Shown: in pieces, positions 24,126 through 61,710 of the stretch
Layout: the number at the start of each line of letters is the position of its first letter
Numbering within the stretch: position 1 is the first letter of the stretch
From: Cupriavidus oxalaticus
Lineage (GTDB): Bacteria; Pseudomonadota; Gammaproteobacteria; Burkholderiales; Burkholderiaceae
DNA length: 64,000 nucleotides
NCBI RefSeq assembly: GCF_004768545.1
Contig: NZ_CP038639.1
Coordinates: 124,001 to 188,000, forward strand
Reading direction: 5' to 3'
Position numbers and translations under genes: made by a program
The notes under the pieces: model-generated
Databases searched by the model: none
The model's input: only the letters and a program-made list of their open reading frames with translations
Told to the model about the DNA's origin: nothing

Positions 24126-24218
24126 TCGAAAGTATTGACGTGTCCACCAAGAATTTAAATGGACACGATGCTCCTTGCTCTCTTGCGTTCCGTCAAAACA
24201 GGTTCAGCGGGCGCCTAC
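24126..24218 (-). mobile_element. Older IS66 element: left terminal repeat and leader
   Basis: Read on the minus strand from 24218: GTAGGCGCCCGCTGAAC, then TTGA and ATCGTGTCCATTTAAATT, matching the left end of the younger IS66 (19424 onward) base by base with small changes. It is the start of the older element whose tnpA continues at 19415. The repeat overlaps the last codons of the D-amino-acid dehydrogenase gene. Confidence 0.85.
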
Positions 24219-25430
24219 TGTTTGCTGAACGACAGCTCCGATCATGTCAGCGGTGACCGCCGACAGCGTCCATCCCAGGTGACCGTGGCCCGTGTTGTAG
24301 TACACGCAGGGCGCGCGGCCCCGCCCAACGCGCGGCAGCATGGTCGGCATCATCGGCCGCAAACCGGCCCACGGCACCACACTACGGGTGCTGACGTCGG
24401 GGAAGCACTCGTTGACCCATTCCACCAGCGGGCGGATGCGATCGGCGCGGATGTCACGATTGTAGCCATTGAACTCCGCGGTGCCCGCCACGCGGAAGCG
24501 GTCGGTGCCGAGGCGGCTGGTAACCAGCTTGGTCTCGTCGTCGAGCAGACTGACGACCGGTGCGGCAGCCTGGCTGCGCGCGTCGTTTAAGTTGACGGTA
24601 ATCGAATAGCCCTTGACCGGATAGATGTTGACGCGGTCGCCCAAGCTCGCCGCCAGCGCACGGCTGGAGGTGCCGGCGCAAACCACCACGCCATCGAACA
24701 CCAGCGACTCCGACCGCTGGCCGTCGTAGATCGCGATGGTGACGTGGCGGCCGTCGGTACTCACGGAGCGGATGTCCTGGTTGTACAGGCAACGCACGCC
24801 GAGGCGGGCGATCGCCGCCGCCATCCCGTTTGTGAACTTGTGGATGTCACCGGTGGAATCGCTTTCGGTGAAATAGCCGCCGTAGTAGTTACCCGCCAGC
24901 GTTGGCTCGATGACGCGCATCTCCTCCGGCGTGACGGCGTGGCGCTCCAATCCACCTTCGGCGAGCAGTTTCGACACGCGGCCTGCATGGTCGAAGCCGG
25001 CCTTGTCGCGATAGATGTGGAGAATGCCTTCCTTTTTCAAGTCGAAGTCGATGCCCTCGGCCGCTGCCCAGGAGAACAGGTGATCGCGCGCGGCAATCGC
25101 CAAGCGCGTCGTTTCCACTGTGTTCTTGCGATATTGGGGGATGGCGGCAATGAACTCGGCGAACCAGGAGAGTTTGTGCCAGCTAGGGCGCGGGTTGACT
25201 AGCAGCGGCGCATCACTCTTTAGCATCCACTTGATGCCCTTCAGGATGGTGGACCAGTGGGTCCAGACTTCGGCGTTGGAGGCGGAGAGCTGGCCGCCAT
25301 TGGCGAACGAGGTTTCCATGGCGGCGTAGCGGTGTCTTTCGAGCAGGGTGACCGAGAAACCGCGCTTGGCGAGTGCGTAGGCAGTGGTCACGCCGGTGAT
25401 GCCACCGCCGATTACGGCAAATTTCTTCAT
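24204..25430 (-). CDS. dadA: D-amino-acid dehydrogenase (DadA-like), C-terminus altered by IS66
   Basis: The 408-residue flavoprotein has the N-terminal FAD motif (AVIGGGITGVTTAYALAKRG), the GYFTESDSTGDIHKF segment and YNTGHGHLGWTLS near the end, as in DadA-type dehydrogenases that oxidise D-amino acids to 2-oxo acids at the membrane quinone pool. The final Val-Gly-Ala-Arg-stop is encoded by the inverted repeat of the older IS66 element, so the native tail is lost; the conserved core is complete. A tandem glycine riboswitch lies in its leader, so glycine or a glycine-like amino acid is a plausible signal or substrate. Confidence 0.88.
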   Translation of the reverse strand: MKKFAVIGGGITGVTTAYALAKRGFSVTLLERHRYAAMETSFANGGQLSASNAEVWTHWSTILKGIKWMLKSDAPLLVNPRPSWHKLSWFAEFIAAIPQYRKNTVETTRLAIAARDHLFSWAAAEGIDFDLKKEGILHIYRDKAGFDHAGRVSKLLAEGGLERHAVTPEEMRVIEPTLAGNYYGGYFTESDSTGDIHKFTNGMAAAIARLGVRCLYNQDIRSVSTDGRHVTIAIYDGQRSESLVFDGVVVCAGTSSRALAASLGDRVNIYPVKGYSITVNLNDARSQAAAPVVSLLDDETKLVTSRLGTDRFRVAGTAEFNGYNRDIRADRIRPLVEWVNECFPDVSTRSVVPWAGLRPMMPTMLPRVGRGRAPCVYYNTGHGHLGWTLSAVTADMIGAVVQQTVGAR

Positions 25431-25491
25431 CTCTAAGGTTCCAAAACGTCAAGTGGGAGCCTTTTGCGCGAAATGCGCGAAAGACGCCCCC

Positions 25492-25690
25492 TCTGTCCTT
25501 GACCTGAGAGATTCACGACGTACCACTTCGATGTGGCGCGGATCGCTTGCTCCTTCGGTACCGTCGGCTGACGAGTGCCGAGGTTCTTCAGAGTTCAAAC
25601 GTGATACCGGTCCTTTTGCCTGAGAGTTTCCGGGGCGGTTGCTCCTTCGGCGCTGCCTGGCTGCTTGGCCAGGCAATCTCTCCCGATACC
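25492..25690 (-). promoter_or_regulatory. Tandem glycine riboswitch
   Basis: On the minus strand, aptamer I begins near 25690 (ATCGGGAGAGATTGCC), has the conserved GCGCCGAAGGAGCAA and closes with ACTCTCAGGCAAAAGGACC. After a short linker, aptamer II shows ACCGAAGGAGCAAGC and ATCTCTCAGGTCAAGGACAG. This is the signature of the cooperative two-aptamer glycine riboswitch. It ends about 60 bp before the dadA start; the spacer with the CGCG hairpin (TTTCGCGCATTTCGCGC) may be the expression platform. Confidence 0.92.
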
Positions 25691-25755
25691 AACTATGGGC
25701 CGCGTCCGCATGGTGCCTACCAAGCGACGCGACGCCGTAATTTAGCACCACTGAT

Positions 25756-26922
25756 CTATTTTCGCGAGTTATCCTTAACAAAATCAATAATCGCGTCGAC
25801 GCCTTGCTGAAGATCTTCGATCGCCGTGGCGAAGGATATTCGGATGCTACGCTCCGACGACGGGCCAAAGGTTGACCCGGGTGCTGCCGCCACGCCCTTC
25901 TCGGCAAGCAACCGCTCTACAAAAACATCTGACGTCATCTCCGTTGCTGAAATGTCCAGCATTGCGAACATGCCACCGGTAGGTGCCGCCAGCAAAATTC
26001 CGGCATCTTGCAACCGATCCTGCACCCTCATCATGCGGTCATGATAGATGCGGCGCATATCATCAACCGAGTCCTGTGGACCGTTCACAGCCTCCAGTGC
26101 GGCATACTGAGATGGCGAGGCTGCGCACGATGTGGTGGGCTCAACGAAGGCCGCGGCAGCATTGATAATTTCAGCGTCCGCAATCAGCCAGCCAATACGC
26201 CATCCCGTCATGGCGTAGCTCTTAGAGGTGCCAGACACAAGGAGCACACGATGAATGGGCGCGATCTCTAGCATGCTGACATGGCGTCCTTCGTACACCA
26301 TATCCTCGTACACCTCGTCAGAAAGGATGTACAGGCCGTGTCGTTCCGCAAATTCGGCCATGCTCGTCATCGTCTTCCTCGACCAGGAAACCCCAGTTGG
26401 GTTGCCCGGTGTGTTGACAAAGATCACACGAGTTCGCGGTGTCACAAGTCTCTCAAGCGCTTCAAAGTCGGGCTCGTACTTCTCGTGAGCGAGAAGCGGG
26501 TATCGGATCGACTTCCCTTCGGCCAGACTTACGCCGCTGTGATAATTGGGCCACGCAGGGTCAGGGACGAGAACCTCATCGCCAGACTCAAGGATCGATG
26601 ACAACGCCAGGTAAATCGCATTCACCGCCCCTGAGGTGATTAAGACTTCGTTCGACGATACTTTCCTCCCCGTTCTCGAACTTACACGCTCCGCTACCGC
26701 GACTCGCAATTCAGGAATGCCGGCGCAAGCCGTATAGCCGGTCTTGCCTTCCTTCACCGCCTTTGCTGCTGCATCTTGGATGTGGGCTGGCGTGGGGAAG
26801 TCAGGTTGGCCGACTTCGAGGTGGATTACCTTCTCGCCGCGCGCTTCCGCCGCCGCGGAAAGCTGCATTACGCGGCGAATCCCCGAGCGCGTAAGGGTTT
26901 CAATGCGACTCGCTGTCATCAC
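25756..26922 (-). CDS. Pyridoxal-phosphate aminotransferase, class I/II
   Basis: The 388-residue protein has the fold-type I aminotransferase pattern: VGQPDFPTPAHIQDAAAKAV, NTPGNPTGVSW, DEVYEDMVYEG (the Asp binding PLP), and SGTSKSYAMTGWRIGW with the Schiff-base Lys. The C-terminal Arg that binds the substrate carboxylate is in SIRISFA. It resembles aspartate/alanine-type enzymes. Its ATG overlaps the stop of the upstream gamma-synthase gene by four bases (ATGA), so the two are co-translated. The amino donor is unknown. Confidence 0.9.
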   Translation of the reverse strand: MMTASRIETLTRSGIRRVMQLSAAAEARGEKVIHLEVGQPDFPTPAHIQDAAAKAVKEGKTGYTACAGIPELRVAVAERVSSRTGRKVSSNEVLITSGAVNAIYLALSSILESGDEVLVPDPAWPNYHSGVSLAEGKSIRYPLLAHEKYEPDFEALERLVTPRTRVIFVNTPGNPTGVSWSRKTMTSMAEFAERHGLYILSDEVYEDMVYEGRHVSMLEIAPIHRVLLVSGTSKSYAMTGWRIGWLIADAEIINAAAAFVEPTTSCAASPSQYAALEAVNGPQDSVDDMRRIYHDRMMRVQDRLQDAGILLAAPTGGMFAMLDISATEMTSDVFVERLLAEKGVAAAPGSTFGPSSERSIRISFATAIEDLQQGVDAIIDFVKDNSRK

Positions 26923-28127
26923 GCGAACTCCAGTGCTTGACCGATGTCTTTCAGCAGGTCATCCGTATCTTCGATGCCAGCGGAGAAACGGATAAGACCG
27001 GGATCAACGCCCTGTTTTCCAACCAGATCCGGAGAAAGACGTCCGAGCCACAGCGCTGCCGGCTGAATCACAAGGGAGTCGATCCCACCCAGGCTCGCAG
27101 CGTAAAACGGAATCTTTAGGGCCTTGATGAACCGCTGTCCCGCTTCGAAGCCGCCTTTCAGATCAAACGTCAGAAGACCGCCATACCCATTCATCTGCTC
27201 ACGGGCCAGTGCGTGTTGCTCGTGCGATTCGAGCCCCGGATAATAAACACGGCTCACTTTCTCGTGTCCCTCAAGGAATTGTGCGATCGCAAGCCCGTTT
27301 TTGTTGCTCTGGTCGACGCGCATTTTCATCGTACGCAGTCCGCGTAGGACGAGCCATGCATTGAACGGGGTAATGACACCACCGAGGGTCATGCCCATGT
27401 CCCAAACACAGTCCATGTGCCTCTTCGAGCCGACTGCGACGCCACCGAGCAGGTCATGATGACCGCCCATGTACTTGGTGGCGCTATGTACAACAATGTC
27501 GACTCCGAAGTCGCCCGGGCGCTGATTGAACGGCGTAGCAAATGTGTTATCACAGACGGTCGTAATTCCATGCTTACGGGCAATGTCACTGACGCCACGA
27601 AGGTCCGTCACTTTCATGGTCGGATTGACCGGGGTTTCCAGCATGAAAACCTTGGTGCTCGGTTGTATCGCTCGTGCGAACGCCTCCGTGTCGTCCTGAT
27701 CAACTAGCGTTACATGGATACCATACCGCCCGAAGGTTTCGTTCATCAGGGTCGTAGTGCCGATGTAATGACTCTTCTGAGCCACGACGTGGTCACCCTT
27801 GCTCAGTAGTGAAAGCAACGTCGTGGTAATTGCGGCCATCCCCGAAGCGAACATAATACCTGCTTCCTTACCCTCCATGTCCGCAACAATGAGCGCGGCG
27901 CGGGATGCAGTTGGGTTGCCGTGGCGGGCATAGAAAAGATCGTTCAGAGGCTCGGTCGCCTTCACAGCAAAGTCGGCCCCATCTTCAGAAAAGTAAGTCA
28001 CCGACTGCATGATGGCTGGCGCGACGCCAGAGCCCGGTTCAAGTGCGCGATCAATGTGCAACGCCCGGGTCGCCGGAGCGAAGCCTTCGTAGGTGTGGTG
28101 GTTGCTATCTGTAAACTGTTTTGCCAT
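26919..28127 (-). CDS. Cys/Met metabolism PLP enzyme (cystathionine gamma-synthase/lyase family)
   Basis: A 402-residue protein starting at 28127 (MAKQFTDSNHH). All family motifs are present: YARHGNPTASRAA, FASGMAAITTTLLSLL, ETPVNPTMKV, CDNTFATPFNQRP and HSATKYMGGHHD with the catalytic Lys. Members perform gamma-replacement or elimination on homoserine/cysteine-type amino acids. Linked to an aminotransferase and a D-amino-acid dehydrogenase, a catabolic lyase role is more likely than methionine synthesis. A paralogue lacking the lysine occurs at 42539. Confidence 0.9.
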   Translation of the reverse strand: MAKQFTDSNHHTYEGFAPATRALHIDRALEPGSGVAPAIMQSVTYFSEDGADFAVKATEPLNDLFYARHGNPTASRAALIVADMEGKEAGIMFASGMAAITTTLLSLLSKGDHVVAQKSHYIGTTTLMNETFGRYGIHVTLVDQDDTEAFARAIQPSTKVFMLETPVNPTMKVTDLRGVSDIARKHGITTVCDNTFATPFNQRPGDFGVDIVVHSATKYMGGHHDLLGGVAVGSKRHMDCVWDMGMTLGGVITPFNAWLVLRGLRTMKMRVDQSNKNGLAIAQFLEGHEKVSRVYYPGLESHEQHALAREQMNGYGGLLTFDLKGGFEAGQRFIKALKIPFYAASLGGIDSLVIQPAALWLGRLSPDLVGKQGVDPGLIRFSAGIEDTDDLLKDIGQALEFA

Positions 28128-28442
28128 CTTGTTCTCCAAGCTGCCGGTAGCAGCACACTCGACGTAAAGCCACAAAAGGGGTGGGGATGTCGGCCGGGGT
28201 ATTAGGGACTGCAGGTAACGCTTCAACCCGATGGCTACGGATAGTCCCGGCAACATGAGTGGAGCGATAGTAAGCGCTGAAGCTGCACCCTATTGATAAA
28301 AACTTGCGCTTCTTTCCTGAGACGAATACGTGTGTGTCGATGGCCAACAGTACATTGTCAGGCTGATGCCGGCGGCCGCACGGGTCAGATTTGCTGCAAT
28401 CAAAACCAAGGGCGACTCGTGCCGAAGCAACTTGCTGCTTAG
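28128..28442. other. Upstream region of the gamma-synthase operon
   Basis: About 315 bp between the start of the PLP operon and the IS427-type element. No gene or riboswitch recognised; a promoter for the operon is expected here but no clear boxes were identified. Confidence 0.4.
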
Positions 28443-29342
28443 AGGGCCTAACAAAATGACTTCCTGAGATGACGCCAGCAGATGATGCAACAAGCGATTT
28501 TCAGGAAGGCTTCGTGGATGGTGGGGAGGCGCTCGAAGCGCACGCGCAATCTCTTGAAGTTGTGCAGCCAAGCAATTGTTCGTTCTACAACCCAACGGGT
28601 TTTGCCAAGACCACTGCCATGCGGTTCACCGCGACGGGCGATCTCAGTGGCGATGCCGGCGGCGTGAAGCGGCTTGCGATACTTGTCGTGGTCGTACCCG
28701 CGATCACCCTGGACGATGCAGGGCTTGGACAATGGACGGCCGCGTTTGCCGCGGATAGGCGGAATCGCCTCGACCAGCGGCAGCAGTTGGGTGACGTCGT
28801 TGCGATTGGCGCCGGTCAGTATCAGCGCCAGCGGTATGCCTTGGGCCTCCGTCAGGAGGTGATGCTTTGAACCGGGTCGCGCGCGATCGGTGGGGTTGGG
28901 TCCTGTTTTTGACCCGACCCCACAGCACGAATGGAAGAGGACTCGACGATGACACGTGACCAATCGATGCGGTCGGCCGCACGCAGCTTGGCCAGCAGCA
29001 CCTCGTGCAGGCGATCCCAAACAGCGGCCTTCTGCCAGGCGTGCAGTCGTCGCCAGCAACTCATCCCGGAGCCGCAGCCCATTTCCGTGGGCAGCATCTC
29101 CCAAGGAATGCCGGACTGCAGGACGAAAAGAATGCCGGTGAGCACGGCCCGATCGTCCAGCGGCTTGCGCCCGGGATAGCGGGGGCGCCGAGCTTTCGGT
29201 GGCGGCAGTAGTGGCTGGATGAGTGCCCACAGATCGTCGTCGAGTATTAGTTTGGCCATGTCCTTTGCGCTGACGAAACAACGCAAAGTTAACAAAGATC
29301 ACTTGAAGTTAACAGCCCTGTAGATTCATTTTGTTAGGGCTT
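28443..29342 (-). mobile_element. IS5-family element (IS427 group)
   Basis: Terminal repeats GGCCTAACAAAATGA (28446-28460) and, on the opposite strand ending at 29340, GCCCTAACAAAATGA bound a two-frame transposase gene. CTTAG occurs just outside both ends (28438-28442 and 29343-29347), a plausible target duplication. The element is complete and separates the amino-acid operon from an AraC regulator. Confidence 0.85.
28448..29259 (-). CDS. IS427-type transposase, orfA/orfB with -1 frameshift
   Basis: OrfA (28852-29259) begins MAKLILDDDLWALIQPLLPP and contains LHAWQKAAVWDRLHEVLLAK. OrfB follows in another frame with KHHLLTEAQGIPLALILTGA, the catalytic Asp in DRGYDHDKYRK and WVVERTIAWLHNFKRLRVRF bearing the Glu. 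The shift lies at GTCAAAAACAGG, typical for the programmed frameshift that makes the fused DDE transposase in this group. Nothing suggests inactivation. Confidence 0.85.
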
Positions 29343-29352
29343 CTTAGTGAGG

Positions 29353-30192
29353 TCACTGCCTAGCGACGCTAGGGGGAACACCGAAAAAGCGCGAGAACTC
29401 TCGGCTCAAGTGACCTTGGTCGTAATATCCCACTTCAACTGCGACTTGACGCAATGGCCGCCCTTTAAGCAGGAGATGCTTCGCGAGTTCGACACGGCGC
29501 TGCACCAGATAGGCATGAGGAGCGACTCCTACTGCCTTCCGGAATGCGCGGATCAGATGGAAGGGACTCATGCCAGCAACTCGAGCAATTGACTCAAGTG
29601 AGGGATTCTCGGTGACATAGGCATCGATGTACTCGCGCGCTCTCTTCACTGCTCCGGGAATAGGTATTAGACGCTCGATGGGTCGCAGGGACTGTCCGTG
29701 TCGGGAGGCCAACTGATAGACTGCCTGTGTAAGTCTCGAGGCTCTTTCAAGTTGCGACGTATCACGAGATTCGGAGCAGATATGAGCCTCGTAGATGAGT
29801 CGCATGGTGTCATCGTCGTTGATGACCGTTTGCGGAAAGTAAAGTTGCTTACCTTGCGGCCGCCACTCGGAATCGATCAAGACTGACGCCATACTGGCTG
29901 TTGGAATATAGACCATCCGATAATCCCATCCGGCCTCTGTTGCAGGGCCGCCTTCGTGAACCGCACCTGGGTTCACAACGCAGATTGTTCCTTGAGGCAT
30001 GATTAGTCGCTCCCCAGTTGCGTAGATGAACTCCTGCGCACCCTTCTCGATAAGACCAAAGGCGTATTCGTCATGAGCATGCGGTGGAAATTGATGCGTC
30101 CGGTACGCTGCACGCAGCATCTCCACGTTGGCAAATGAAGTCTCTCGCCATAACTTGGCCTGATTATTGCGTTGCCTTACAGATGATTTCAT
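29353..30192 (-). CDS. AraC family transcriptional regulator
   Basis: A 279-residue AraC protein with a cupin-like sensor (YRTHQFPPHAHDEYAFGLIE, MPQGTICVVNPGAVHEGGPA) and a C-terminal pair of HTH motifs (SLESIARVAGMSPFHLIRAF, RQVAVEVGYYDQGHLSREFS). It is a close paralogue of the regulator at 45137, sharing AKLWRE-S and GPATEAGWDYRM-Y. Such regulators often control amino-acid exporters or catabolic operons; the PLP/dadA operon or the FAH-fold gene are candidate targets. Confidence 0.9.
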   Translation of the reverse strand: MKSSVRQRNNQAKLWRETSFANVEMLRAAYRTHQFPPHAHDEYAFGLIEKGAQEFIYATGERLIMPQGTICVVNPGAVHEGGPATEAGWDYRMVYIPTASMASVLIDSEWRPQGKQLYFPQTVINDDDTMRLIYEAHICSESRDTSQLERASRLTQAVYQLASRHGQSLRPIERLIPIPGAVKRAREYIDAYVTENPSLESIARVAGMSPFHLIRAFRKAVGVAPHAYLVQRRVELAKHLLLKGRPLRQVAVEVGYYDQGHLSREFSRFFGVPPSVARQ

Positions 30193-36461: not shown

Positions 36462-37508
36462 TCAGGCCTCCGCAGGCTGCCGCGCTGCGGTAGGGGCATA
36501 ATCAGGACAGAAGTCGCGGTTCTGTGTCAGCAGCGCCCAGATGATTCTTGCATTCTTGTTTGCCAGCGCCACGGCAGCCACATTGACATTGCGTCGCAAG
36601 AGCAATGTTTGGAGCCAACTGCTCGTCGCCCCTTTGGGCTTGGCCCTGTAGATCACCGCGCGAGCGCCATGGATGAGCAGCGTTCGCAAATACGTATCCC
36701 CTCGCTTGCTGATGCCGAGCAAGACGTTTTTTCCTCCGCTGGAGTTTTGTCGAGGCACAAGGCCAAGCCACGCCGCCAATTGGCGGCCGCTGGTGAAGTT
36801 CCGCGCGTTGCCTACAGTCGCTACCAGCGCACTGGCAGTAATCGGGCCGATTCCTGGAACTTGCGCCAGCTTGCGGCTCAACTCGCTATCCCGATGCCAT
36901 GCTTCGATCTGCGCGCCAATTTCATCGGCCTGACGGTCCAGTTCCTTCAGATGCTCCAGCAGCCGCTGGATGAGCAGACGGAACGAGCCCGGCAACTCAT
37001 TGGTCGCATCCTCGATCAACTCCGGGACCTGCCTGGCAATTTTCCCAATGCCCTGTGGAACAACCAACCCAAACTCAGCCAGCAATCCGCGGATCTGGTT
37101 GGCCTGCGAGGTACGCGCTTTCACAAAGCCCTGACGCGCACGGTGCAGCGCCAGCACCGCCTGCTGCTCAAGGTTCTTGATAGGCACAAACCTCATATTC
37201 GGCCGTGCCACCGCTTCGCAGATCGCCTCGGCATCGGCCGGATCGTTCTTGTTCGTTTTGACATACGGCTTGACGAACTGCGGCGCCATCAGCCGCACAG
37301 TGTGACCGAAGCTCTGCAGCTTGCGAGCCCAGTGGTGCGCGCTGCCACACGCCTCCATCCCAATTACACTCGGCGGCAGAGTCGCAAAGAACTCGGCCAC
37401 CTGGGCACGCTTGAGCTGCTTCCTCAACGTGGCTCTGCCAAGCTCATTCACACCGTGAACCTGAAAGACATTTTTCGCCAAGTCGATGCCGATCGTCGTG
37501 ACCTTCAT
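36462..37508 (-). CDS. IS110 family transposase
   Basis: A complete 348-residue DEDD/RuvC-like transposase: IGIDLAKNVFQVHGVNELGR, IGMEACGSAHHWARKL, KTNKNDPADAEAICEA, then the C-terminal transposase_20 domain with VPGIGPITASALVATVGN and SGRQLAAWLGLVPRQNSSGG including the conserved Ser. No frameshifts. It should be able to move the element together with its bridge RNA. Confidence 0.92.
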   Translation of the reverse strand: MKVTTIGIDLAKNVFQVHGVNELGRATLRKQLKRAQVAEFFATLPPSVIGMEACGSAHHWARKLQSFGHTVRLMAPQFVKPYVKTNKNDPADAEAICEAVARPNMRFVPIKNLEQQAVLALHRARQGFVKARTSQANQIRGLLAEFGLVVPQGIGKIARQVPELIEDATNELPGSFRLLIQRLLEHLKELDRQADEIGAQIEAWHRDSELSRKLAQVPGIGPITASALVATVGNARNFTSGRQLAAWLGLVPRQNSSGGKNVLLGISKRGDTYLRTLLIHGARAVIYRAKPKGATSSWLQTLLLRRNVNVAAVALANKNARIIWALLTQNRDFCPDYAPTAARQPAEA

Positions 37509-37601: not shown

Positions 37602-37961
37602 TCAGCGCAGATCCAATTCCTTTATCTCTTCCTCGGTGAAGACCCGCGATCGAGCATGAAACACGCTGCCCTCCGGTCCCTCTAACGAGAACGTACCGCC
37701 CGTGCCCTCAATCACGTCAACGATGAGTTGGGTATGCATCCAGTACTGGTACTGGTTCTGACCGATATAAAAAGGAACGCCACCGATGTCACCCAGATAG
37801 ACATCGCCTGCACCTATCGTCAGCTCGCCAGGAAGGTACGCATTGACAGCACTGTTGTCACAGCAACCGCCCGACTGGTGAAAGAAGAAATTTCCGTGCT
37901 TGCTCTTTAGCTTCTCGATCAGCGCCAATGCCGCTGAGGTAGCCAGAACCTTGTCGACCAT
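37602..37961 (-). CDS. DUF779 protein, aldehyde dehydrogenase partner
   Basis: The 119-residue product begins at 37961 (MVDKVLATSAALALIEKLKS). The DUF779 marker FHQSGGCCDNSAVNAYLPGE with its twin Cys, and YWMHTQLIVDVIEGTG, are conserved. Family genes nearly always follow aldehyde dehydrogenase genes in proteobacteria; the role is unknown but an accessory function is assumed. It lies 104 bp downstream of the aldehyde dehydrogenase, with a strong hairpin between. Confidence 0.85.
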   Translation of the reverse strand: MVDKVLATSAALALIEKLKSKHGNFFFHQSGGCCDNSAVNAYLPGELTIGAGDVYLGDIGGVPFYIGQNQYQYWMHTQLIVDVIEGTGGTFSLEGPEGSVFHARSRVFTEEEIKELDLR

Positions 37962-38012
37962 GCAAGACCTCGCGTCGTGCGGTTTGTATTGACCCATTGG
38001 GCCGGATATCAA

Positions 38013-38065: not shown

Positions 38066-39586
38066 TCAGAAGAAACCCAGCTTGTTTTCGCTGTAGCTGA
38101 CCAGCAGATTCTTGGTCTGCTGGTAGTGGTCAAGCATCATCTTGTGGTTCTCACGACCGATGCCCGACTCCTTGTAGCCACCAAAGGCTGCATGCGCGGG
38201 GTAGCTGTGGTAGCAGTTAGTCCACACACGACCAGCCTTGATTGCGCGGCCCATGCGATAGGCGACATTGCCGTTGCGGGTCCAGACGCCTGCGCCAAGG
38301 CCGTATAGCGTGTCATTGGCAATCGCCAGGGCCTCCGCTTCGTCCTTGAAGGTAGTGACGGCCAAGACCGGCCCAAAGATCTCCTCCTGGAAGATGCGCA
38401 TCTTGTTATGGCCCTTGAAAAGAGTCGGCTGCACGTAGTAGCCGCCGGCCAACTCGCCGTCCTGCTGCGCCTGCGCGCCGCCGGCCAGCACCTCGGCCCC
38501 CTCCTGCTTGCCCAGATCGAGATAGGACAGGATCTTGGTCAGCTGCTCCTTGCTGGCCTGAGCGCCGATCATGGTATCGGTGTCTAGCGGGTTGCCTTGC
38601 TTGATGGCGGCTACGCGCTCAAGCACACGGCCCATGAACTTGTCATAGATCGACTCGTGGATCAGAGCGCGCGACGGGCACGTGCAGACCTCCCCCTGAT
38701 TGAAGGCGAACAGCACCAGGCCTTCGATGGCCTTGTCGAAGAAGGCATCATCCTTATCGGCGACGTCGGCAAAGAAGATGTTGGGCGACTTGCCACCCAG
38801 CTCCAGGGTCGCTGGAATCAGGTTGTTGGCGGCGGCCTGCGCAATAACGCGGCCGGTACTTGTGCTGCCGGTGAAAGCAATCTTTGCGATGCGGCGGCTG
38901 GTTGCCAGTGGCATGCCGGCTTCGCGGCCGAATCCGTTGACGACGTTGAGTACACCCGGCGGCAACAGATCGGCAATGAGGTCAACGAGGACCAGGATGC
39001 TGATGGGGGTCGATTCGGCGGGCTTCAGCACCACGCAGTTGCCGGCACCCAGCGCGGGAGCCAGCTTCCAGGCAGCCATCAGGATGGGAAAGTTCCAGGG
39101 AATGATCTGGCCAACCACCCCCAGCGGCTCGTGCATGTGATAAGCCACCGTGTTTTCATCGATCTCACTAACACCGCCCTCTTGCGCACGCACGCAGCCC
39201 GCGAAATAGCGGAAGTGGTCAATGGTCAGCGGGAGATCGGCGTTCAGCGTTTCGCGGATAGGCTTGCCGTTGTCCACAGTCTCGGCGTAGGCCAGCAGCT
39301 CAAGGTTGGCTTCCAGGCGGTCGGCGATCTTGAGCAGCACGTTGGCTCGCTCAGCAGCCGAAGTCTTGCCCCACTTGTCGGCGGCAGCGTGCGCAGCGTC
39401 CAGCGCCAGCTCGATGTCTTCAGCACTCGAGCGGGCAGCCTGCGTGTACACAGTGCCCGAAATCGGCGTCACGACGTCGAAGTATTGCCCATTGACCGGG
39501 GCCACCCACTCCCCGCCGATAAAATTGTCGTAACGGGGCTTGTACGAAATCTTGGCGCCAGCAGCGCCCGGAGCGGCATAAATCAT
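38066..39586 (-). CDS. NAD-dependent aldehyde dehydrogenase (AcoD/ExaC-type)
   Basis: A 506-residue enzyme starting at 39586 ([20 protein letters not shown]). Landmarks: [40 protein letters not shown], catalytic Glu in LELGGKSPN, catalytic Cys in [23 protein letters not shown]. With its DUF779 companion it resembles acetaldehyde dehydrogenases of the acetoin/ethanol type. Acetaldehyde could come from threonine aldolase or from malonate-semialdehyde decarboxylation, both with possible genes in the window. Confidence 0.92.
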
Positions 39587-40314
39587 GAAAAGTCTCGTGT
39601 ATTGTTGAGGGGTCACCAAACTGTTCGCGGCGAAATCCCCACCTATCAAGAGATGCACCAAATCACGCTGCGCGTAAGCGCTGTGACATGGCGCGACTTC
39701 CTACATTCCGGCTAGGAACTGCAACTTGCTACGGCTCATGTTCCATTCTCGGGTGGCAGCGCGCCCGTCTGGGTACGCCCTCCAGCCAGCGAGCAACGAC
39801 GCGTCAGCGTCCAGGTTTGCCATGTTTCACCCGCGCAGCTCATTGAGATGCACACGGTTCACCCAGTCGACTCCCCGAGTTGTACTGGTAGGCCACAGGT
39901 TGCAGCACCGGCATGTTCAGCCCGATCCGACTTTCGAAGTTGAAGAATATTGCGGTCTTCTGGCACGCACCCCTCGGAAGGGGCCTCCTCAGTCGCAGGC
40001 CACTCGAATTTTGGCAGTGCGGTGCCTAGACGGCTGGCGTGACCATTCCCCTAGGACCGCTATCCAGGACGATGAGTCACATCTGGGACATCCTGTCAAC
40101 AGGATCGCGACCCTGCAGTGACCACCCCCAGAAATGACCCACCAAGGGTAGTCGCCGTTTCCGATGGTCCCAACCCGCTGGCAAGCTAGGGGTATACGTG
40201 ATTTCAGTTTGATTACCTCGACTGCTAAGATGTACCTACAACTTTCTGCAGCAATCCGACCACATAGTTGCATATGCATCTTGATATGCGGTCGCTCATC
40301 ATCAAGGAGATTCA
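39587..40314. other. Divergent control region of aldehyde dehydrogenase and tautomerase
   Basis: About 730 bp without a supported gene. A 131-codon plus-strand frame (39726-40121) has no family resemblance. I looked for a sigma-54 promoter upstream of the aldehyde dehydrogenase and found no convincing GG-N10-GC. Confidence 0.45.
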
Positions 40315-40755
40315 GTGCCTACTTATATCGTATCCGCCGCCGCCGGCTTGCTTTCGTTGGACGCGAAACAAGCGATCGCCGAAGCTATCACCGTCTCCCA
40401 CAACAAAGTCACCGGCGCCAACATGTTCTTTGCTCAGGTGATTTTTCAGGATGTCCCCCAGGGCAATCATTTCATGGGAGGTCGCCCTCTACGGCATGAC
40501 CACATCTTTGTCCACGGCCACGTACGGTCCGGGCGAACGCGCGAACAGAAGGCAGACTTGCTTAACCGAATCGTCGATGGGATCTGCCAAGTGACCGATG
40601 TACCGAAGGTCAATGTGTGGGGATATATCTCTGAGTTACCCCCAAGCCACATGATTGAGTACGGCGAAATCCTCCCGGAGCCGGGAGAAGAGGCTCAGTG
40701 GATGGAGTCCCTCGCTCCGGAAGTGCGGAATTTCATGGCGAACATCGAGCGCTGA
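40315..40755 (+). CDS. Tautomerase superfamily, cis-3-chloroacrylic acid dehalogenase (cis-CaaD) type
   Basis: GTG start with AAGGAGA ahead. After removal of Met, the 145-residue chain starts with Pro. Counting from Pro-1, all six catalytic residues of cis-CaaD fall at their exact positions: Pro-1, His-28, Arg-70, Arg-73, Tyr-103 and Glu-114. The local contexts (VHGHVRSGRTREQK and IEYGEILPEPGEEAQW) resemble the enzyme. cis-CaaD hydrates 3-chloroacrylate to malonate semialdehyde; the homologue Cg10062 has the same six residues but a poorer dehalogenase activity and handles acetylenic acids, so the substrate is open. A membrane transporter follows 56 bp downstream. Confidence 0.85.
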   Translation: MPTYIVSAAAGLLSLDAKQAIAEAITVSHNKVTGANMFFAQVIFQDVPQGNHFMGGRPLRHDHIFVHGHVRSGRTREQKADLLNRIVDGICQVTDVPKVNVWGYISELPPSHMIEYGEILPEPGEEAQWMESLAPEVRNFMANIER

Positions 40756-40811: not shown

Positions 40812-42476
40812 ATGACCACCACTACATTTGCCCTGGAAGCTAAGGGCGGCATGACAAAGGAAGAGCGAAAAGTTGTCTTCGCATCTTCGTTGGGTACCGT
40901 ATTCGAATGGTACGATTTTTATCTCTACGGGTCGCTTGCCGCAATTATCGGTAAGCAGTTCTTCTCGGGCGTGAATGAAACAACATCATTCATCTTTGCA
41001 TTGCTTGCCTTCGCTGCAGGCTTCGCGATCCGACCTTTTGGTGCCCTGTTCTTCGGGCGTCTGGGGGACTTGATCGGGCGAAAGTATACGTTCCTCGTCA
41101 CGATCTTGCTGATGGGGTCTTCCACTTTTCTTGTCGGAATTTTGCCGACGTACGCATCCATCGGCATCACGGCCCCGATTTTGCTGATCTTGCTGCGCCT
41201 CGCCCAAGGTCTTGCCCTCGGTGGTGAGTATGGCGGTGCTGCCACCTATGTTGCTGAACACGCCTCTGAGGGTCGGCGCGCGTACTTCACCTCCTGGATT
41301 CAAACCACCGCGACGCTGGGTTTCTTCCTCTCGTTGATCGTCATCCTCGGAACTCGTCTGCTACTCGGCGAGACAACTTTTGCCGCATGGGGGTGGCGAG
41401 TTCCCTTTATCTTCTCCGTGCTTCTGCTTGGGATTTCTGTATGGATTCGTCTCTCTCTCAGCGAATCGCCAGTCTTCCTGAAGATGAAACAAGAGAAGAA
41501 GACCTCCAAGGCCCCCATTTCCGAGGCCTTTGGAAACTGGAAGAACGTAAGAATTGTTCTGATTGCCCTGTTCGGTCTAGTGGCAGGCCAGTCGGTGATC
41601 TGGTACACGGGACAATTTTACGCCCTCTTCTTCCTCACACAATCGCTCAAGGTAGACCCGATCACGGCCAACCTACTGATTGCTTCGGCCCTGCTCATCG
41701 GCGTTCCCATGATTGTGTACTTTGGGAAGCTTGCAGACCGAATTGGGCGAAAGCCGCTGATGATTACGGGATTCTTTTTGTCCGCAGTGCTGTATTTCCC
41801 ACTCTTCAAAGCGATGACACATTATGTGAATCCCGCTTTGGACAGGGCGCAGAAAACAGCACCGGTGACCGTGGTTGCAGACCCGGCAGCATGCTCATTC
41901 CAGTTTAATCCGGTTGGCACTGCCGAATTCACGAAGTCTTGCGATATCGCGAAGGCCTACCTCTCGAAGTCCTCGGTGAACTATGAGAACGTAGCGGCTC
42001 CCCTCGGGACGACGGCCTATGTTCGAATTGGTGATCGCGTCATCTCTAGCTACGAGAGCAAAGCCCTTGACCCGGTCGAACGGAAGCAGCGAGCAGCGTC
42101 CTTCGAGAACGAGCTGAGTGACACGCTTAAAGCCGTGGGGTATCCCAAAACAGCAGCTCTGGAGGAGATGAACATCCCCATGGTTATGCTGATCCTCACA
42201 GTTCTAGTTGCACTCGTCGCACTTGTGTATGCACCGATTGCTGCCGTGCTTGTTGAACTCTTCCCTACACGCATCAGATATACCGCGATGTCTTTGCCTT
42301 ACCACGTCGGAAACGGTTGGTTTGGGGGATTTTTGCCCACAACTGCATTCGCGTTGGTCGCAGCCACAGGGAACATGTACGCTGGGCTGTGGTACCCGGT
42401 AAGCATTGCCGCCCTATCCTTTGTGGTAGCACTCTTCTTCCTTCCCGAAACAAAGAACAGAAGCATCGCTGACTGA
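40812..42476 (+). CDS. MFS transporter, metabolite:H+ symporter (MHS) family
   Basis: A 554-residue transporter of the ProP/KgtP/ShiA type: VFEWYDFYLYGSLAAIIGKQ, GRLGDLIGRKYTFL, GLALGGEYGGAATYVAEHA, SWIQTTATLGFFLSL. A hydrophilic insertion of about 100 residues (roughly 335-440, including VVADPAACSFQFN) before the last helices is seen in a known long subgroup. It probably imports an organic acid, possibly the tautomerase substrate. Ribosome-binding site TTGAGGT precedes the ATG. Confidence 0.9.
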   Translation: MTTTTFALEAKGGMTKEERKVVFASSLGTVFEWYDFYLYGSLAAIIGKQFFSGVNETTSFIFALLAFAAGFAIRPFGALFFGRLGDLIGRKYTFLVTILLMGSSTFLVGILPTYASIGITAPILLILLRLAQGLALGGEYGGAATYVAEHASEGRRAYFTSWIQTTATLGFFLSLIVILGTRLLLGETTFAAWGWRVPFIFSVLLLGISVWIRLSLSESPVFLKMKQEKKTSKAPISEAFGNWKNVRIVLIALFGLVAGQSVIWYTGQFYALFFLTQSLKVDPITANLLIASALLIGVPMIVYFGKLADRIGRKPLMITGFFLSAVLYFPLFKAMTHYVNPALDRAQKTAPVTVVADPAACSFQFNPVGTAEFTKSCDIAKAYLSKSSVNYENVAAPLGTTAYVRIGDRVISSYESKALDPVERKQRAASFENELSDTLKAVGYPKTAALEEMNIPMVMLILTVLVALVALVYAPIAAVLVELFPTRIRYTAMSLPYHVGNGWFGGFLPTTAFALVAATGNMYAGLWYPVSIAALSFVVALFFLPETKNRSIAD

Positions 42477-42538: not shown

Positions 42539-43702
42539 ATGAACGACCCAGTAACGAACCTCGGTAGTGTTTGCGCGGAACATGCACATGCGAGACTGCA
42601 ACCACTGCAAACATTCATCCAGGTTGCCGACTACGATGCATTGCTCGCCAGGAACGGGGCTCCTACTGCTACCACCGGTTGCCATACTCCACACAAAGGT
42701 TCTATTGCCGCCGCCGTGTCTAGCACCCTTGCGGCACTTGAGGGCGCCGAGGCAGCCTTACTGAACTCGTCGGGAAAAGACACACTTTCCGTGTGTCTAT
42801 TGACGTTATTGCGAAGCGGCGACCATATCATTGCGCAACGGAACCATTCCCCCGAGACCAAGAACTTCCTCACTCGCGTCCTGCCCAAGGTCGGTGTTGA
42901 TGTGACTTTGGTCGATCATCGCGACACAGACGCTTTCCGGGCAGCAATCACCCCTGCAACCACGCTGATTGTGCTCGAGGCGCCACGGTATCCCTGCTTC
43001 GATATCACCGACCTGGCTGCAGTGTCGTCGCTCGCGCGGGAGCATGGAGTGCTGACGCTCTGTGATAACACAGCTGCAACGCCCCTTGTTCAGATGCCAA
43101 TAGCATTGGATATTGACCTTGTTGTCTATAGGTCAAGTCGATATATCAGCGGGTACCTTGACACTCGAGTAGGCATTGTTGCCGGCTCACGGACGCTCGT
43201 TGAACGAGTTCGGGCAAAAAGTATGAATCTCGGCTCAGCCGATCTCCCGGATGCCTGGCTGTTACTCCGCGGGATTCAGACACTAAGGGACCGCGTAGAG
43301 CAGCGATGCAGAAACGCGTATGCAATGGCGTCGTTTCTCGAGGAGCATCCTAAGATTGAGCGGGTGTTCTATCCAGGAAATGAAGACCATCCTCAGCGTT
43401 CTCTGGTGCTTAGGCAAATGGACGCATTTGGTGGCTCGTTAAGCTTCAATTTGGTCGGGGGACACAACGCTGCTGAGAGATTCGTTGGCGCGCTCAAGTT
43501 GTCATCGACTTGTATTGGCCACAGTGCCGATGCGCTCCGCGTAGCATCGCCTTCTTATCCAATCGAGTGTTCGGAAGCACCCTTTGAATTCGACATAGAC
43601 GACGAACTAGGTGTCGATGAGGGACTTGTCTGCATGGAAGTTGGAGTCGGTGAAACCGACCGACTTCTGACGCGGATAGAGCAAGCGCTCAGGCACGCCT
43701 AG
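42539..43702 (+). CDS. Cys/Met metabolism PLP-fold protein lacking the catalytic lysine
   Basis: A 387-residue intact frame aligned with cystathionine gamma-synthase-type enzymes over its length (LAALEGAEAALLNSSGKDTL, EAPRYPCFDITDLAAVSSLA, TLCDNTAATPLVQMP, LLRGIQTLRDRVEQR). At the Schiff-base motif it reads RSSRYISGYLD instead of SATKYxxGHxD: the lysine is Arg (codon CGA). The Tyr-Arg loop (YARxGNPT) is also changed. It should not form the internal aldimine, so it is either a pseudoenzyme with a regulatory/binding role or an early stage of gene decay. A paralogue with intact motifs is at 26919. Confidence 0.8.
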   Translation: MNDPVTNLGSVCAEHAHARLQPLQTFIQVADYDALLARNGAPTATTGCHTPHKGSIAAAVSSTLAALEGAEAALLNSSGKDTLSVCLLTLLRSGDHIIAQRNHSPETKNFLTRVLPKVGVDVTLVDHRDTDAFRAAITPATTLIVLEAPRYPCFDITDLAAVSSLAREHGVLTLCDNTAATPLVQMPIALDIDLVVYRSSRYISGYLDTRVGIVAGSRTLVERVRAKSMNLGSADLPDAWLLLRGIQTLRDRVEQRCRNAYAMASFLEEHPKIERVFYPGNEDHPQRSLVLRQMDAFGGSLSFNLVGGHNAAERFVGALKLSSTCIGHSADALRVASPSYPIECSEAPFEFDIDDELGVDEGLVCMEVGVGETDRLLTRIEQALRHA

Positions 43703-43953: not shown

Positions 43954-45060
43954 CTAGTAGCCAGCGCTATTCTTTGTTGACTGCACGACACCCTGTGTTC
44001 CATAGGTGCCTGCTTTGTCGGCGTGCTCCGAGGCAACGGACTCGATGATCGAAACTGCTTTCCGGACATCGGCCTCGGTGATATTCAGGTATGGGATGGC
44101 ACGGATGCCATCAGAACCAGAAGGAAGCACATGGAGACCGCGTTCGTAAAGCCTGTCGGCAAAATCCGTCGCAGGCAACGACGTAACGGAGAAGCGAACG
44201 ATGTTGGTCTCAACTGACTGCACATCCAGCGAAATGCCAGGAAGCACCGCAATGCCCTCGGCAAGAAGCTTGGCATGGTAATGATCTTCAGCCAGGCGTT
44301 CCCGATTGTTATGAAGTGCATACAGCGCACCTGCAGCGATGATGCCGGCTTGACGAAAACCACCGCCGATCTGCTGCTTGAAGCGTCGGGCACGAGAAAT
44401 GAAATCCCGAGGGCCCGCGAGAATCGAGCCGACTGGCGCGCCCATCGCCTTGGAAAAGCAGATACTCACGCTGTCAAACAGCGCGGCGTAAGTGCTTTCT
44501 GGAATCCCCGTGGCTACCGACGCATGCCAGAGGCGGGCTCCGTCCAAGTGCAATGCGAGACCACGCCGACGCGCGGTCTCGCACACTGCTTTCAGTTGCT
44601 CCATCGGCCAAACCTTTCCGCCGCCGATGTTATGCGTGTTCTCTACGCAAAGTAGCTTAACCGGTGCCGCAATCGTACTGGGGAAGAAACGATGCGGTAC
44701 ACCCAGAGCTGCCTCAATGTCGCCTGGAGTAAAGACGCCGCGTACACCTGGCAGAAGACGCGGAAGCACACCGGAAAATGCTGCCGGAGCACCGCCCTCA
44801 AGGATATAGACGTGAGCGTTCTGATCAAACAGGACTGCATCACCTGGTTCGGTATAAGCTCGGATAGCAACTTGGTTAGTCATGGTCCCGGTGACCATGT
44901 ACACAGCGTCCTCTTTGCCGAGGAATTCGGCAACCTCCCGCTCCAGACGCTTGACCGTAGGGTCATCGCTGTACACGTCGTCGCCAACTGGAGCAGTCGC
45001 CATGGCCTGGCGCATGGCGTCAGTGGGCTGGCTGCATGTGTCACTTCGTAGGTCAATCAC
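43954..45060 (-). CDS. Low-specificity threonine aldolase family
   Basis: The 368-residue PLP enzyme has MIDLRSDTCSQPTDAMRQAM, DDPTVKRLEREVAEFLGKED, LHLDGARLWHASVATGI (Asp binding PLP) and SICFSKAMGAPVGSIL with the Schiff-base Lys. It cleaves beta-hydroxy amino acids such as L-threonine/allo-threonine into glycine and an aldehyde (acetaldehyde for Thr). It is about 75 bp from an AraC gene reading the same way. Products link to the glycine riboswitch locus and the aldehyde dehydrogenase. Confidence 0.9.
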   Translation of the reverse strand: MIDLRSDTCSQPTDAMRQAMATAPVGDDVYSDDPTVKRLEREVAEFLGKEDAVYMVTGTMTNQVAIRAYTEPGDAVLFDQNAHVYILEGGAPAAFSGVLPRLLPGVRGVFTPGDIEAALGVPHRFFPSTIAAPVKLLCVENTHNIGGGKVWPMEQLKAVCETARRRGLALHLDGARLWHASVATGIPESTYAALFDSVSICFSKAMGAPVGSILAGPRDFISRARRFKQQIGGGFRQAGIIAAGALYALHNNRERLAEDHYHAKLLAEGIAVLPGISLDVQSVETNIVRFSVTSLPATDFADRLYERGLHVLPSGSDGIRAIPYLNITEADVRKAVSIIESVASEHADKAGTYGTQGVVQSTKNSAGY

Positions 45061-45136: not shown

Positions 45137-45985
45137 CTAATAGTTGCCGACCACTTTGCTTGGTGATGCGCCATAGAACCGTCGGAACTCCCGACTTAGG
45201 TGAGCTTGGTCGCTGTAGCCTAGGGCTATCGCTATGGATCGAATTGGCCGCCCCTTAACAAGCAGATGACGCGCAATCTCGACGCGCCGCTGAATCAGGT
45301 ATGCGTGAGGTGCCATGCCTACGTATCGCTTAAACGCCCTAAGGAAATGATAGGGACTCATCCCCGCCACCTCGGCGATTTCTCCTAACGATGGATTCGA
45401 ACTAATGCACGCGTCGATGTACTCACGAGCCCTCTTCACCGCACCAGGAAGAACTGTGGAAGGGGGCCGCTGGTGGCGTTTTTGAGCATACCTTCTGGTC
45501 AACTCCTTCAATGCCACAGTGAGGCGCGTAGACTTTTCCAGCGCAGATGGGCCTCGGGATTCCGAGCAGAGATGCGCGGCACGAAGCTGGCTAAGAACAT
45601 CATCATCATGAATGACAGAGTCCGGGAAGTGCACAATCACCCCCCCAAGATCATCTAACGAGTCGCTTAACGCTACCTGGAGGGAAGCAGAAGAAACGTA
45701 CATCATTCGATAGTCCCAACCTGCCTCGGTCGCTGGACTTCCTTCATGAAGCTCGCCCGGATTTATCACGCAGACCGAGCCTGCAGGCATAATCAAACGC
45801 GTGCTTCGGTTAAGAGTAAACGCTTGAGATCCTTGCTCGATGAACCCGATTCCATATTCGGCATGTTCGTGCGGCGGAAAGCTATGTGTTCGATACTTCG
45901 CACGCAGAAACTCGGCATCATCAAGCGAGGATTCTCGCCACAACTTTGCTTGATTGAACGCGGGGGGCTCTGCAGATTGCTTCAT
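45137..45985 (-). CDS. AraC family transcriptional regulator
   Basis: A 282-residue AraC protein closely similar to that at 29353: YRTHSFPPHEHAEYGIGFIE, NPGELHEGSPATEAGWDYRM, ending with HTH motifs SLGEIAEVAGMSPYHFLRAF and RSIAIALGYSDQAHLSREFR. The sensor shows a conserved cupin-type His cluster. It is upstream of the threonine aldolase gene in the same orientation, which it probably regulates. Confidence 0.9.
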   Translation of the reverse strand: MKQSAEPPAFNQAKLWRESSLDDAEFLRAKYRTHSFPPHEHAEYGIGFIEQGSQAFTLNRSTRLIMPAGSVCVINPGELHEGSPATEAGWDYRMMYVSSASLQVALSDSLDDLGGVIVHFPDSVIHDDDVLSQLRAAHLCSESRGPSALEKSTRLTVALKELTRRYAQKRHQRPPSTVLPGAVKRAREYIDACISSNPSLGEIAEVAGMSPYHFLRAFKRYVGMAPHAYLIQRRVEIARHLLVKGRPIRSIAIALGYSDQAHLSREFRRFYGASPSKVVGNY

Positions 45986-47359: not shown

Positions 47360-47931
47360 CTACCTCGGATGCTGGGAGGCCTCTTCTGCGGATTCGTCGG
47401 GGTGATTTTGATCGCCCAGCCTTGAATGTGCATGATGCCGGCGGCGATCCCCTTGGGGTCGCGTACATGCTGCTTGGTTCGCTAAGTGTGGGGGGCTCGT
47501 TCGTGTACGCACGGCGCTTTCTTTCCGGCCTGAATCTGTCGCCGCTTCCTCTTTCGACCTGGCAAATCGGCTTCGCGCTCGTCGTTATCACGTCCATGAC
47601 GGACTTCCACGGCATCGCACGTATTGCTGACGACACCCGAGCTCTCCTTGGCCTCGTGCTAGGTCTCGGCCTGTCCGGCACGGGGCTCGCGTTCATTCTC
47701 TATTACTTCGTTGTCGGCCGACTTGGAGCGCTGGCAGCTTCGAGCGTCACCTATATCCCTCCAGTCGTTGCGTTGCTCATGGGAGCAGCAATCGCGGACG
47801 AGTCGCTGCGCCCCGTTGATGCGCTGGCCATGGCCGCCATTCTAGGTGGCGTTTACCTTCTGCAAAGCAGAATGCACTCGAGGCCGTTACCCGCGCTTCG
47901 ACAGCGCCGGCGAGGGGTTCGGCCTGACTAA
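47360..47931 (+). pseudogene. DMT/EamA transporter, C-terminal half
   Basis: The first bases read GGLFCGFVGVILIAQP in one frame, then a shift leads into NVHDAGGDPLGVAYMLLGSL, LLGLVLGLGLSGTGLAFILY and PPVVALLMGAAIADESLRPV, the second EamA domain with its five helices. The first half is missing. It abuts the LysR fragment on the opposite strand, so one deletion probably truncated both. Confidence 0.8.
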
Positions 47932-61317: not shown

Positions 61318-61710
61318 CTATGCCTTGGGCGCGTACTGCATTTCGCCGTTACCGAATGACCAGTCTTCGCGGTTGACGTCCACGAGGCTGATCCACACGT
61401 CCTGAATCCGGATGCCGGTCTCGCGCGAAATCCCCTCGGCTACAGCCTTATAGAACGCCTTCTTAACTTCCGTAGATCGCCCGGCGTTCCACGTGACCTG
61501 AATGAAAACGATACTGGGTGTGTAGTCGATCCCCAAATACCCCTCAGCTGGATAAATCAGCTCGTCGTCGGCGTGGCGGGTGATGATCTGAAATTTGTCG
61601 TGCTGCGGAACATTCGCGACGTCGATCATGGACGCGTAGACGACGTCACTCACGGCGCGAACAGTCTCAGCGGATGCAGTCTGGGAAATGTTGATTCTGA
61701 CGAGTGGCAT
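61318..61710 (-). CDS. Tautomerase superfamily protein, MSAD-like (Tautomerase_2)
   Basis: The 130-residue product starts at 61710 (MPLVRINISQTASAETVRAV), so Pro-1 is present after Met removal. Asp-37 of malonate-semialdehyde decarboxylase is conserved (VPQHDKFQIITRH), as is DWSFGNGEMQYA. The Arg-73/Arg-75 pair of MSAD is replaced by VTWNAGRST, leaving a single Arg. It therefore belongs to the MSAD-like group but its decarboxylase activity is doubtful. It is divergent from a LysR gene. Confidence 0.82.
   Translation of the reverse strand: MPLVRINISQTASAETVRAVSDVVYASMIDVANVPQHDKFQIITRHADDELIYPAEGYLGIDYTPSIVFIQVTWNAGRSTEVKKAFYKAVAEGISRETGIRIQDVWISLVDVNREDWSFGNGEMQYAPKA

Follow-up and report, generated by a model that had tools for sequence, protein, structure and literature searches.

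A tautomerase of the cis-CaaD subgroup in Cupriavidus oxalaticus and its recurring gene partners

Results

The tautomerase gene and its surroundings

The DNA analyzed in this work is a stretch of 64,000 nucleotides of Cupriavidus oxalaticus, hereafter referred to as the window; the features of the locus are listed in Table 1. Proteins of the cis-3-chloroacrylic acid dehalogenase (cis-CaaD) subgroup are fused double beta-alpha-beta proteins, about twice as long as the short 4-OT enzymes, that have a proline after the methionine. The tautomerase encoded in the window has this organization: a proline follows the methionine, two Tautomerase stretches are detected with Pfam, and its length agrees with that of a fused double beta-alpha-beta protein. 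The Pfam models Tautomerase and Tautomerase_3 both score above their cut-offs. Numbered from Pro-1, the residues Pro-1, His-28, Arg-70, Arg-73, Tyr-103 and Glu-114 are all present, exactly as claimed in a preliminary description of this DNA. A phmmer search of solved structures matched the protein to cis-CaaD chain 9ng8 (E = 3.4e-35, 124 bits), to 7m58 (122 bits) and to Cg10062 (3n4g; E = 3.1e-31, 112 bits). The aligned identities are 58/141 (41%) for cis-CaaD, 57/139 (41%) for Cg10062 and 53/138 for 7m58, and the window enzyme is therefore about as close to Cg10062 as it is to cis-CaaD. An intact relative, 72% identical to the window tautomerase, is present in Cupriavidus lacunae. Judged from the sequence, the open reading frame (ORF) is a genuine gene and no chance ORF, and its product is a member of the cis-CaaD subgroup.

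Table 1. Features of the tautomerase locus and of other parts of the window.
Feature	Position	Strand	Basis
cis-CaaD-subgroup tautomerase, 146 aa, GTG start	40315..40755	+	ORF, homology, six residues, loop GANMFF
Ribosome-binding-site-like AAGGAG, 5 bases 5' of the GTG start	40304..40309	+	Read from sequence
MFS transporter, metabolite:H+ symporter type	40812..42476	+	TIGR00883 best model, below its cut-off
Cys/Met-metabolism PLP-fold protein, Arg at the Schiff-base Lys position	42539..43702	+	Family search, alignment
GntG-family PLP aldolase, threonine-aldolase type	43954..45060	-	NF041359: 362.3 bits, cut-off 230
AraC-family regulator with AraC_binding domain, upstream of aldolase	45137..45985	-	Pfam; order kept in relatives
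Aldehyde dehydrogenase (ALDH), ExaC equivalog, divergent from tautomerase	38066..39661	-	NF050026: 953.6 bits, cut-off 900
DUF779 protein beside ALDH	37602..38012	-	Pfam; pair also in L054, L085
IS110-family transposase adjoining the DUF779-ALDH pair	36462-37508	-	
EamA/DMT transporter remnant (residues 153-301 of 328, 79% identical)	47425..47871	+	Fuller copies in other Cupriavidus
MSAD-subgroup tautomerase, FG41 malonate semialdehyde decarboxylase (MSAD) closest solved relative	61318..61710	-	81.6 bits
Second amino-acid cluster	24204-30192	-	ORFs named by reading, not by family search

The two neighbours named in the preliminary description, a transporter gene downstream and an ALDH gene facing the tautomerase gene, both exist. 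The protein encoded by the latter is of the ExaC acetaldehyde dehydrogenase type (Table 1) and not a malonate-semialdehyde dehydrogenase. The pair formed by the genes of the AraC regulator and the GntG aldolase is a partner absent from that description. The PLP-fold protein encoded between the transporter and aldolase genes is probably a pseudoenzyme and has a divergent N-terminus. At E <= 1e-60, no relative of it was found in 60 Cupriavidus genomes besides the window's own ORF at 26919-28256 (40% identical), and the best 15 of 352 plasmid records showed identities of 45% or less. The cluster at 24204-30192, as read, contains ORFs for an AraC regulator, a Cys/Met PLP enzyme with the Lys in place, an aminotransferase-like protein and a D-amino-acid-oxidase-like protein, with a transposase-like ORF between them. 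The AraC protein of this cluster is 63-64% identical to the aldolase-linked AraC of Caballeronia, whereas the window's aldolase-linked AraC is only 54% identical to it. Further ORFs in the window look transposase-like by reading. A megablast of the locus against plasmids returned 31 records, all of which covered less than 80% of the query, and the best 10 rows corresponded to the ALDH gene.

Distribution of the tautomerase and loci compared

The tautomerase is rare in the genus. Matches at E <= 1e-3 were obtained for 6 of the 60 Cupriavidus genomes, and intact close copies are present in only three of them, namely the window's own genome, G014 (72%) and G050 (69%). In G050 the aldolase gene is flanked by two tautomerase ORFs, one of which is diverged. 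The copy of G058 is broken, and the other matches in these 60 genomes are distant or weak. The G058 tautomerase is split into pieces that lie on opposite strands and are separated by about 4 kb (L004, L008 and L013), with an EamA transporter gene beside one piece. At the family level, the tautomerase was found in 25 of 299 genomes.

For the comparison of gene neighbourhoods, 91 loci were used. Besides the window, they comprise two from Cupriavidus (L012, L013), eight from plasmids (L017-L024) and 80 from genomes (L025-L104). The latter were kept from 338 relatives detected by an alignment-based scan; a first scan of the genome contigs with a single protein as the query had detected no relative. 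L011 (G014), a duplicate of L025, and L014-L016, which contain distant homologues, were left out. The 91 loci are not mutually independent; for instance, L019 and L024 are from two strains of one species. In L035, L041, L043, L049 and L055, the stretch that contains the cis-CaaD-type ORF also has an extra small tautomerase-like ORF (131-164 aa as called), and that of L035 was checked in Pfam.

The six residues and the loop at positions 33-38

An excerpt of PMC5818174 gives the list of six residues for the cis-CaaD subgroup. We aligned the window protein with its relatives, the three reference proteins and three distant Cupriavidus homologues (98 rows), and the set PHRRYE was found in 92 of the 98 rows, including those of marine Pelagibacter. 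Of the six exceptions, three are the distant Cupriavidus homologues, which have T or F at position 103; another row has Y28 and K73, a further one is a truncated copy, and the last is a partial row that is gapped at position 28. Because 92 of the 98 rows carry them, the six residues mark the subgroup and not the substrate. Within the subgroup they do not discriminate, and as proof of a dehalogenase the signature was rejected.

The preliminary description had also proposed to compare the loop at positions 33-38 with that of cis-CaaD and Cg10062. The window sequence, GANMFF, matches neither characterised enzyme. It shares Gly-33 and Phe-37 with the loop of cis-CaaD (GTQHFL; PDB 2flt/2flz), which matches the window protein over nearly its full length and has the same six residues, but has Ala-34, Asn-35, Met-36 and Phe-38 instead, and Thr-34 and Leu-38 of cis-CaaD are thus not conserved. 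With Cg10062, also named CgX, and with 7m58, annotated as "Tautomerase_3 domain-containing protein", it has the six residues and Ala-34 in common, but their loops are HAPKYL and VAPRYL, respectively. Among the relatives, Ala-34 (95/98 rows) and Phe-38 (92/98 rows) are typical, a conservation that is partly built in because one of the two search patterns behind the 80 genome loci contained the loop 33-38 stretch.

Phylogenetic placement

A careful tree was constructed from 96 rows, two fragmentary rows having been left out, and 145 columns. The window protein groups with two Cupriavidus relatives (support 100/96), and Cg10062 falls together with 7m58 and a row from Methylobacterium (100/98). 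The latter group lies outside a 57-row group (98/94) that holds both the window protein and cis-CaaD, and within which cis-CaaD is near the window protein with weak support (89/25). A clade joining the window protein to cis-CaaD (p 0.81) was not rejected by AU tests, and neither was one joining it to Cg10062 (p 0.75); these tests, made with a quick tree of 64 of the 96 rows, are rough because the quick free search missed better trees. With 145 columns, trees cannot settle the placement between cis-CaaD and Cg10062, and we attribute firmly neither a cis-CaaD-type nor a Cg10062-type identity to the window enzyme on the basis of the tree. The tree comparison named in the preliminary description as a possible refutation decided neither way.

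Transporter, regulator and aldehyde dehydrogenase genes

The neighbourhoods vary widely, and many of the 91 loci are without MSAD, MFS, GntG or ALDH partners. The downstream transporter is one of the partners that recur: a window-type MFS gene lies at most five genes from the tautomerase gene in 10 of the 91 loci and is adjacent to it in nine. The MFS proteins of the nine relatives' loci are 71-74% identical to that of the window in eight cases and 68% in L045. Members of this MFS family were found in 260 of the 299 family genomes, with at most four candidates scored per genome. Among the matches listed, the copies are 63-68% identical to that of the window, and apart from the window itself only G278 exceeds 68%; its MFS gene (74%; C302:12689-14344) directly follows a tautomerase gene (C302:12212-12643). 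Since identities above 68% among the matches listed occur only beside a tautomerase gene, this accessory copy appears to travel with the tautomerase.

A cluster of MarR regulators is found at most five genes from the tautomerase gene in 23 of the 91 loci (adjacent in 18), regulators of the AraC family in 8, and an ALDH cluster of mixed identity in 6. ExaC-like ALDH genes, whose products are 68-73% identical to that of the window, are present near the tautomerase gene in L025, L054 and L085. A second ExaC-like ALDH, 74% identical to that of the window, is encoded on contig C1 of the same genome. The window ALDH is nearer to this chromosomal copy than to the copy of L025 (70%) and is therefore not clearly a dedicated orthologue.

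EamA-type transporter genes adjoin a tautomerase gene in L012, L013, L022 and L070. Regarding the EamA/DMT remnant of the window, a fuller copy is located next to a tautomerase gene in L012 and another within 3.5 kb of the tautomerase gene in L025.

The cis-CaaD-subgroup tautomerase of Pelagibacter (loci among L064-L104) has all six residues and a largely fixed place, and in 16 loci it is adjoined by a hexapeptide-protein gene. The Pelagibacter neighbours scanned include the hexapeptide protein, FecR proteins and a methyltransferase, and formed no evident catabolic set. At L085, among the Pelagibacter loci, the ExaC-like ALDH and DUF779 genes directly follow the tautomerase gene.

Linkage to a GntG-family aldolase

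The window aldolase passes the model for the GntG-family PLP aldolases, which together with low-specificity L-threonine aldolase are the nearest known systems, but it differs from these in its association with a cis-CaaD-type tautomerase. A GntG aldolase gene is located at most five genes from the tautomerase gene in 7 of the 91 loci, adjacent in six, and 3.2 kb away from it in the window. The order AraC-GntG-tautomerase is found in Cupriavidus lacunae, on two plasmids of Caballeronia, in Caballeronia cordobensis and in a Variovorax MAG, whose aldolase is 47% identical. When the aldolase was used as the query, we obtained three plasmid genes with identities of 69.9% or more and matches in six of the 299 family genomes, the window's included. 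A tautomerase gene is located within 4 kb of four of these nine GntG genes (69.9-100% identical, counting the window's own), namely those of the window, C. cordobensis, C. zhejiangensis and Caballeronia NK8; for the other five, the surrounding stretch retrieved contained no tautomerase gene. Of the 299 family genomes searched, 6 gave the GntG gene, 25 the tautomerase gene and 2 both. As far as gene order can tell, the link between GntG aldolase and tautomerase is real but not obligatory.

The careful tree needs three changes to account for the GntG linkage. A single origin, tested as one clade, was not rejected (p 0.447 without the Variovorax row and 0.102 with it), and we do not claim repeated independent linkage.

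Linkage to MSAD-subgroup genes

A profile search of 90 tautomerase loci (1.36 Mb) detected 11 MSAD-subgroup genes in 10 of them, against 0.24 expected from their density. The expected number is derived from 45 full-length Tautomerase_2 matches (listing count) in 60 family genomes that total about 260 Mb; nine of the ten positive loci were in the alignment behind the profile, and related loci were counted separately. We judge that the ten loci fall in about six lineages on the careful tree. The MSAD-subgroup cluster is located at most five genes from the tautomerase gene in 9 of the 91 loci and is adjacent in three.

In L019, L024, L037 and L045, which form one clade in the careful tree, the neighbour shares 54-55% identity with 2aag, a solved MSAD, and carries Pro-1, Asp-37, Arg-73 and Arg-75, which we take to be the catalytic residues of MSAD; the gene order in these four loci is MSAD< MarR> tautomerase> MFS>. 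In L063 and L091, the MSAD-subgroup gene is located directly upstream of the tautomerase gene on the same strand. The MSAD-subgroup proteins of L034, L035, L062, L063, L091 and the window are all nearer to the FG41 enzyme than to 2aag, and Arg-73 is missing in five of these six rows, that of the window included, as it is in FG41 MSAD itself. Of the three Tautomerase_2 matches in the genome, the window gene alone is full-length, and as it lies 21 kb from the tautomerase gene, the linkage is loose. In the reverse direction, 16 MSAD-type genes from the 299 family genomes were inspected, and none had this tautomerase at a distance of 1.5 kb or less. The MSAD of this reverse search is also matched by 123 plasmid records, of which those already retrieved were inspected. 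The gene neighbourhood hints at malonate-semialdehyde or acetaldehyde chemistry.

Discussion

What cis-CaaD-like enzymes act on in nature, outside the degraders of dichloropropene, is the question addressed here. In an excerpt of PMC5818174, CgX is described as a cis-CaaD of low efficiency that lacks absolute isomer specificity, and the function of the Corynebacterium homologue is called unknown there. Among the papers listed in searches of one library of open-access literature, no title or abstract opening showed the combination of a cis-CaaD-type tautomerase with an aldolase and the other partners described above.

We give an even chance to the view that the window enzyme is a cofactor-free hydratase acting on an acetylenic or halo-acrylic acid of three or four carbons, possibly derived from a beta-hydroxy amino acid, to form malonate semialdehyde or acetaldehyde. 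The residue roles assumed for it are those that we take from cis-CaaD and Cg10062. By analogy with these enzymes, Arg-70, Arg-73 and His-28 would bind the carboxylate group of an alpha,beta-unsaturated acid of three or four carbons, Glu-114 and Tyr-103 would activate a water molecule to attack C-3, and Pro-1 would protonate C-2; the enzyme is presumably trimeric. As to the reaction, the substrate and the direction of the pathway, we infer that a halo-acrylate or propiolate would yield malonate semialdehyde, and that 2-butynoate, a C4 acetylenic acid, would yield acetoacetate. Cg10062 hydrates propiolate and 2-butynoate, and carries on to acetaldehyde by decarboxylation of malonate semialdehyde. 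Malonate semialdehyde might be decarboxylated similarly by the window enzyme, an onward step that would fit the ExaC-type ALDH, which would clear the acetaldehyde. The acid may enter the cell via the accompanying MFS symporter or be formed inside it; in the lineage of the window, it may stem from a beta-hydroxy amino acid that is cleaved by the GntG-type aldolase and oxidised by an ALDH.

The route to malonate semialdehyde suggested in the preliminary description is thus retained in part. Membership of the subgroup, the accompanying transporter and the MSAD-subgroup genes in relatives' loci argue for it, but the loop resembles that of neither characterised enzyme, the trees are not firm and the ALDH is of the acetaldehyde type. 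The presence of the six residues in rows lacking a dehalogenation context, such as those of Pelagibacter, argues against the hydratase reading too.

It is unlikely that the window enzyme is a true cis-3-chloroacrylate dehalogenase in a pathway of the 1,3-dichloropropene type, with the transporter importing the chloroacid and chloride being released to give malonate semialdehyde. Degraders of 1,3-dichloropropene have a CaaD/MSAD lower pathway, with which the loci of ten relatives have the MSAD-subgroup genes in common. The close MSAD homologues in the clade of L019, the six residues together with the identity to cis-CaaD, and the clade with cis-CaaD that the AU test left standing all agree with this explanation. 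However, Ala-34 and Phe-38 replace residues of the cis-CaaD loop, the seven neighbour proteins scanned include no haloalkane dehalogenase, and several relatives are from isolates that were associated with insects or taken from soil, with no pointer to a recent man-made substrate. The window locus further differs from such a pathway, and from the known context of cis-CaaD, in its FG41-like and distant MSAD-subgroup gene, its GntG aldolase and AraC regulator, and its ExaC-type ALDH.

Just as improbable, in our view, is that the protein is a keto-enol tautomerase or has a function new to the subgroup, its neighbours being partly incidental. This would account for the great variation over the 91 loci and the neighbours scanned in Pelagibacter, and few members of the superfamily have been characterised according to an excerpt of PMC5818174; the density of MSAD-subgroup neighbours and the recurrence of the MFS and GntG partners speak against it.

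Slightly less probable again is an AraC-regulated pathway that degrades or detoxifies beta-hydroxy amino acids bearing an acetylenic or halo-vinyl group, with compounds such as beta-ethynylserine or 2-amino-3-hydroxy-4-hexynoate as possible substrates. The GntG aldolase would release glycine and an alkynal, an ALDH would oxidise the latter to an alkynoic acid, and the tautomerase would convert this acid into malonate semialdehyde or acetoacetate. It is the sole scheme we found that gives each recurring partner a step, and it is consistent with the AraC-GntG-tautomerase order in Cupriavidus lacunae, Caballeronia and the Variovorax MAG, with the EamA-type transporter genes beside four tautomerase genes, and with the ALDH gene that adjoins the AraC gene in L025. 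GntG units also occur without the tautomerase, however, no acetylenic amino acid has been tied to the host organisms, and a repeated origin of the GntG linkage is unsupported, a single one being compatible with the one-clade tests.

There is only a slim chance that the aldolase cleaves beta-hydroxyglutamate or threonine, with the tautomerase decarboxylating malonate semialdehyde or being unrelated to the acetaldehyde that ExaC oxidises: the ExaC-type ALDH and the GntG aldolase both fit acetaldehyde or malonate semialdehyde, which Cg10062 decarboxylates, but the conserved Tyr-103 and Glu-114, the water-activating pair, and the acid transporter would be left unexplained.

The recurring unit of AraC regulator, aldolase and tautomerase, the pairing of tautomerase and transporter, and the MSAD-subgroup genes nearby lead to a short list of testable substrates for Cupriavidus, Caballeronia and Paraburkholderia. 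The association of the aldolase with the tautomerase points, unexpectedly, to amino-acid cleavage. If true, the amino-acid route would be a native physiological role for the cis-CaaD subgroup, which is best known from man-made substrates.
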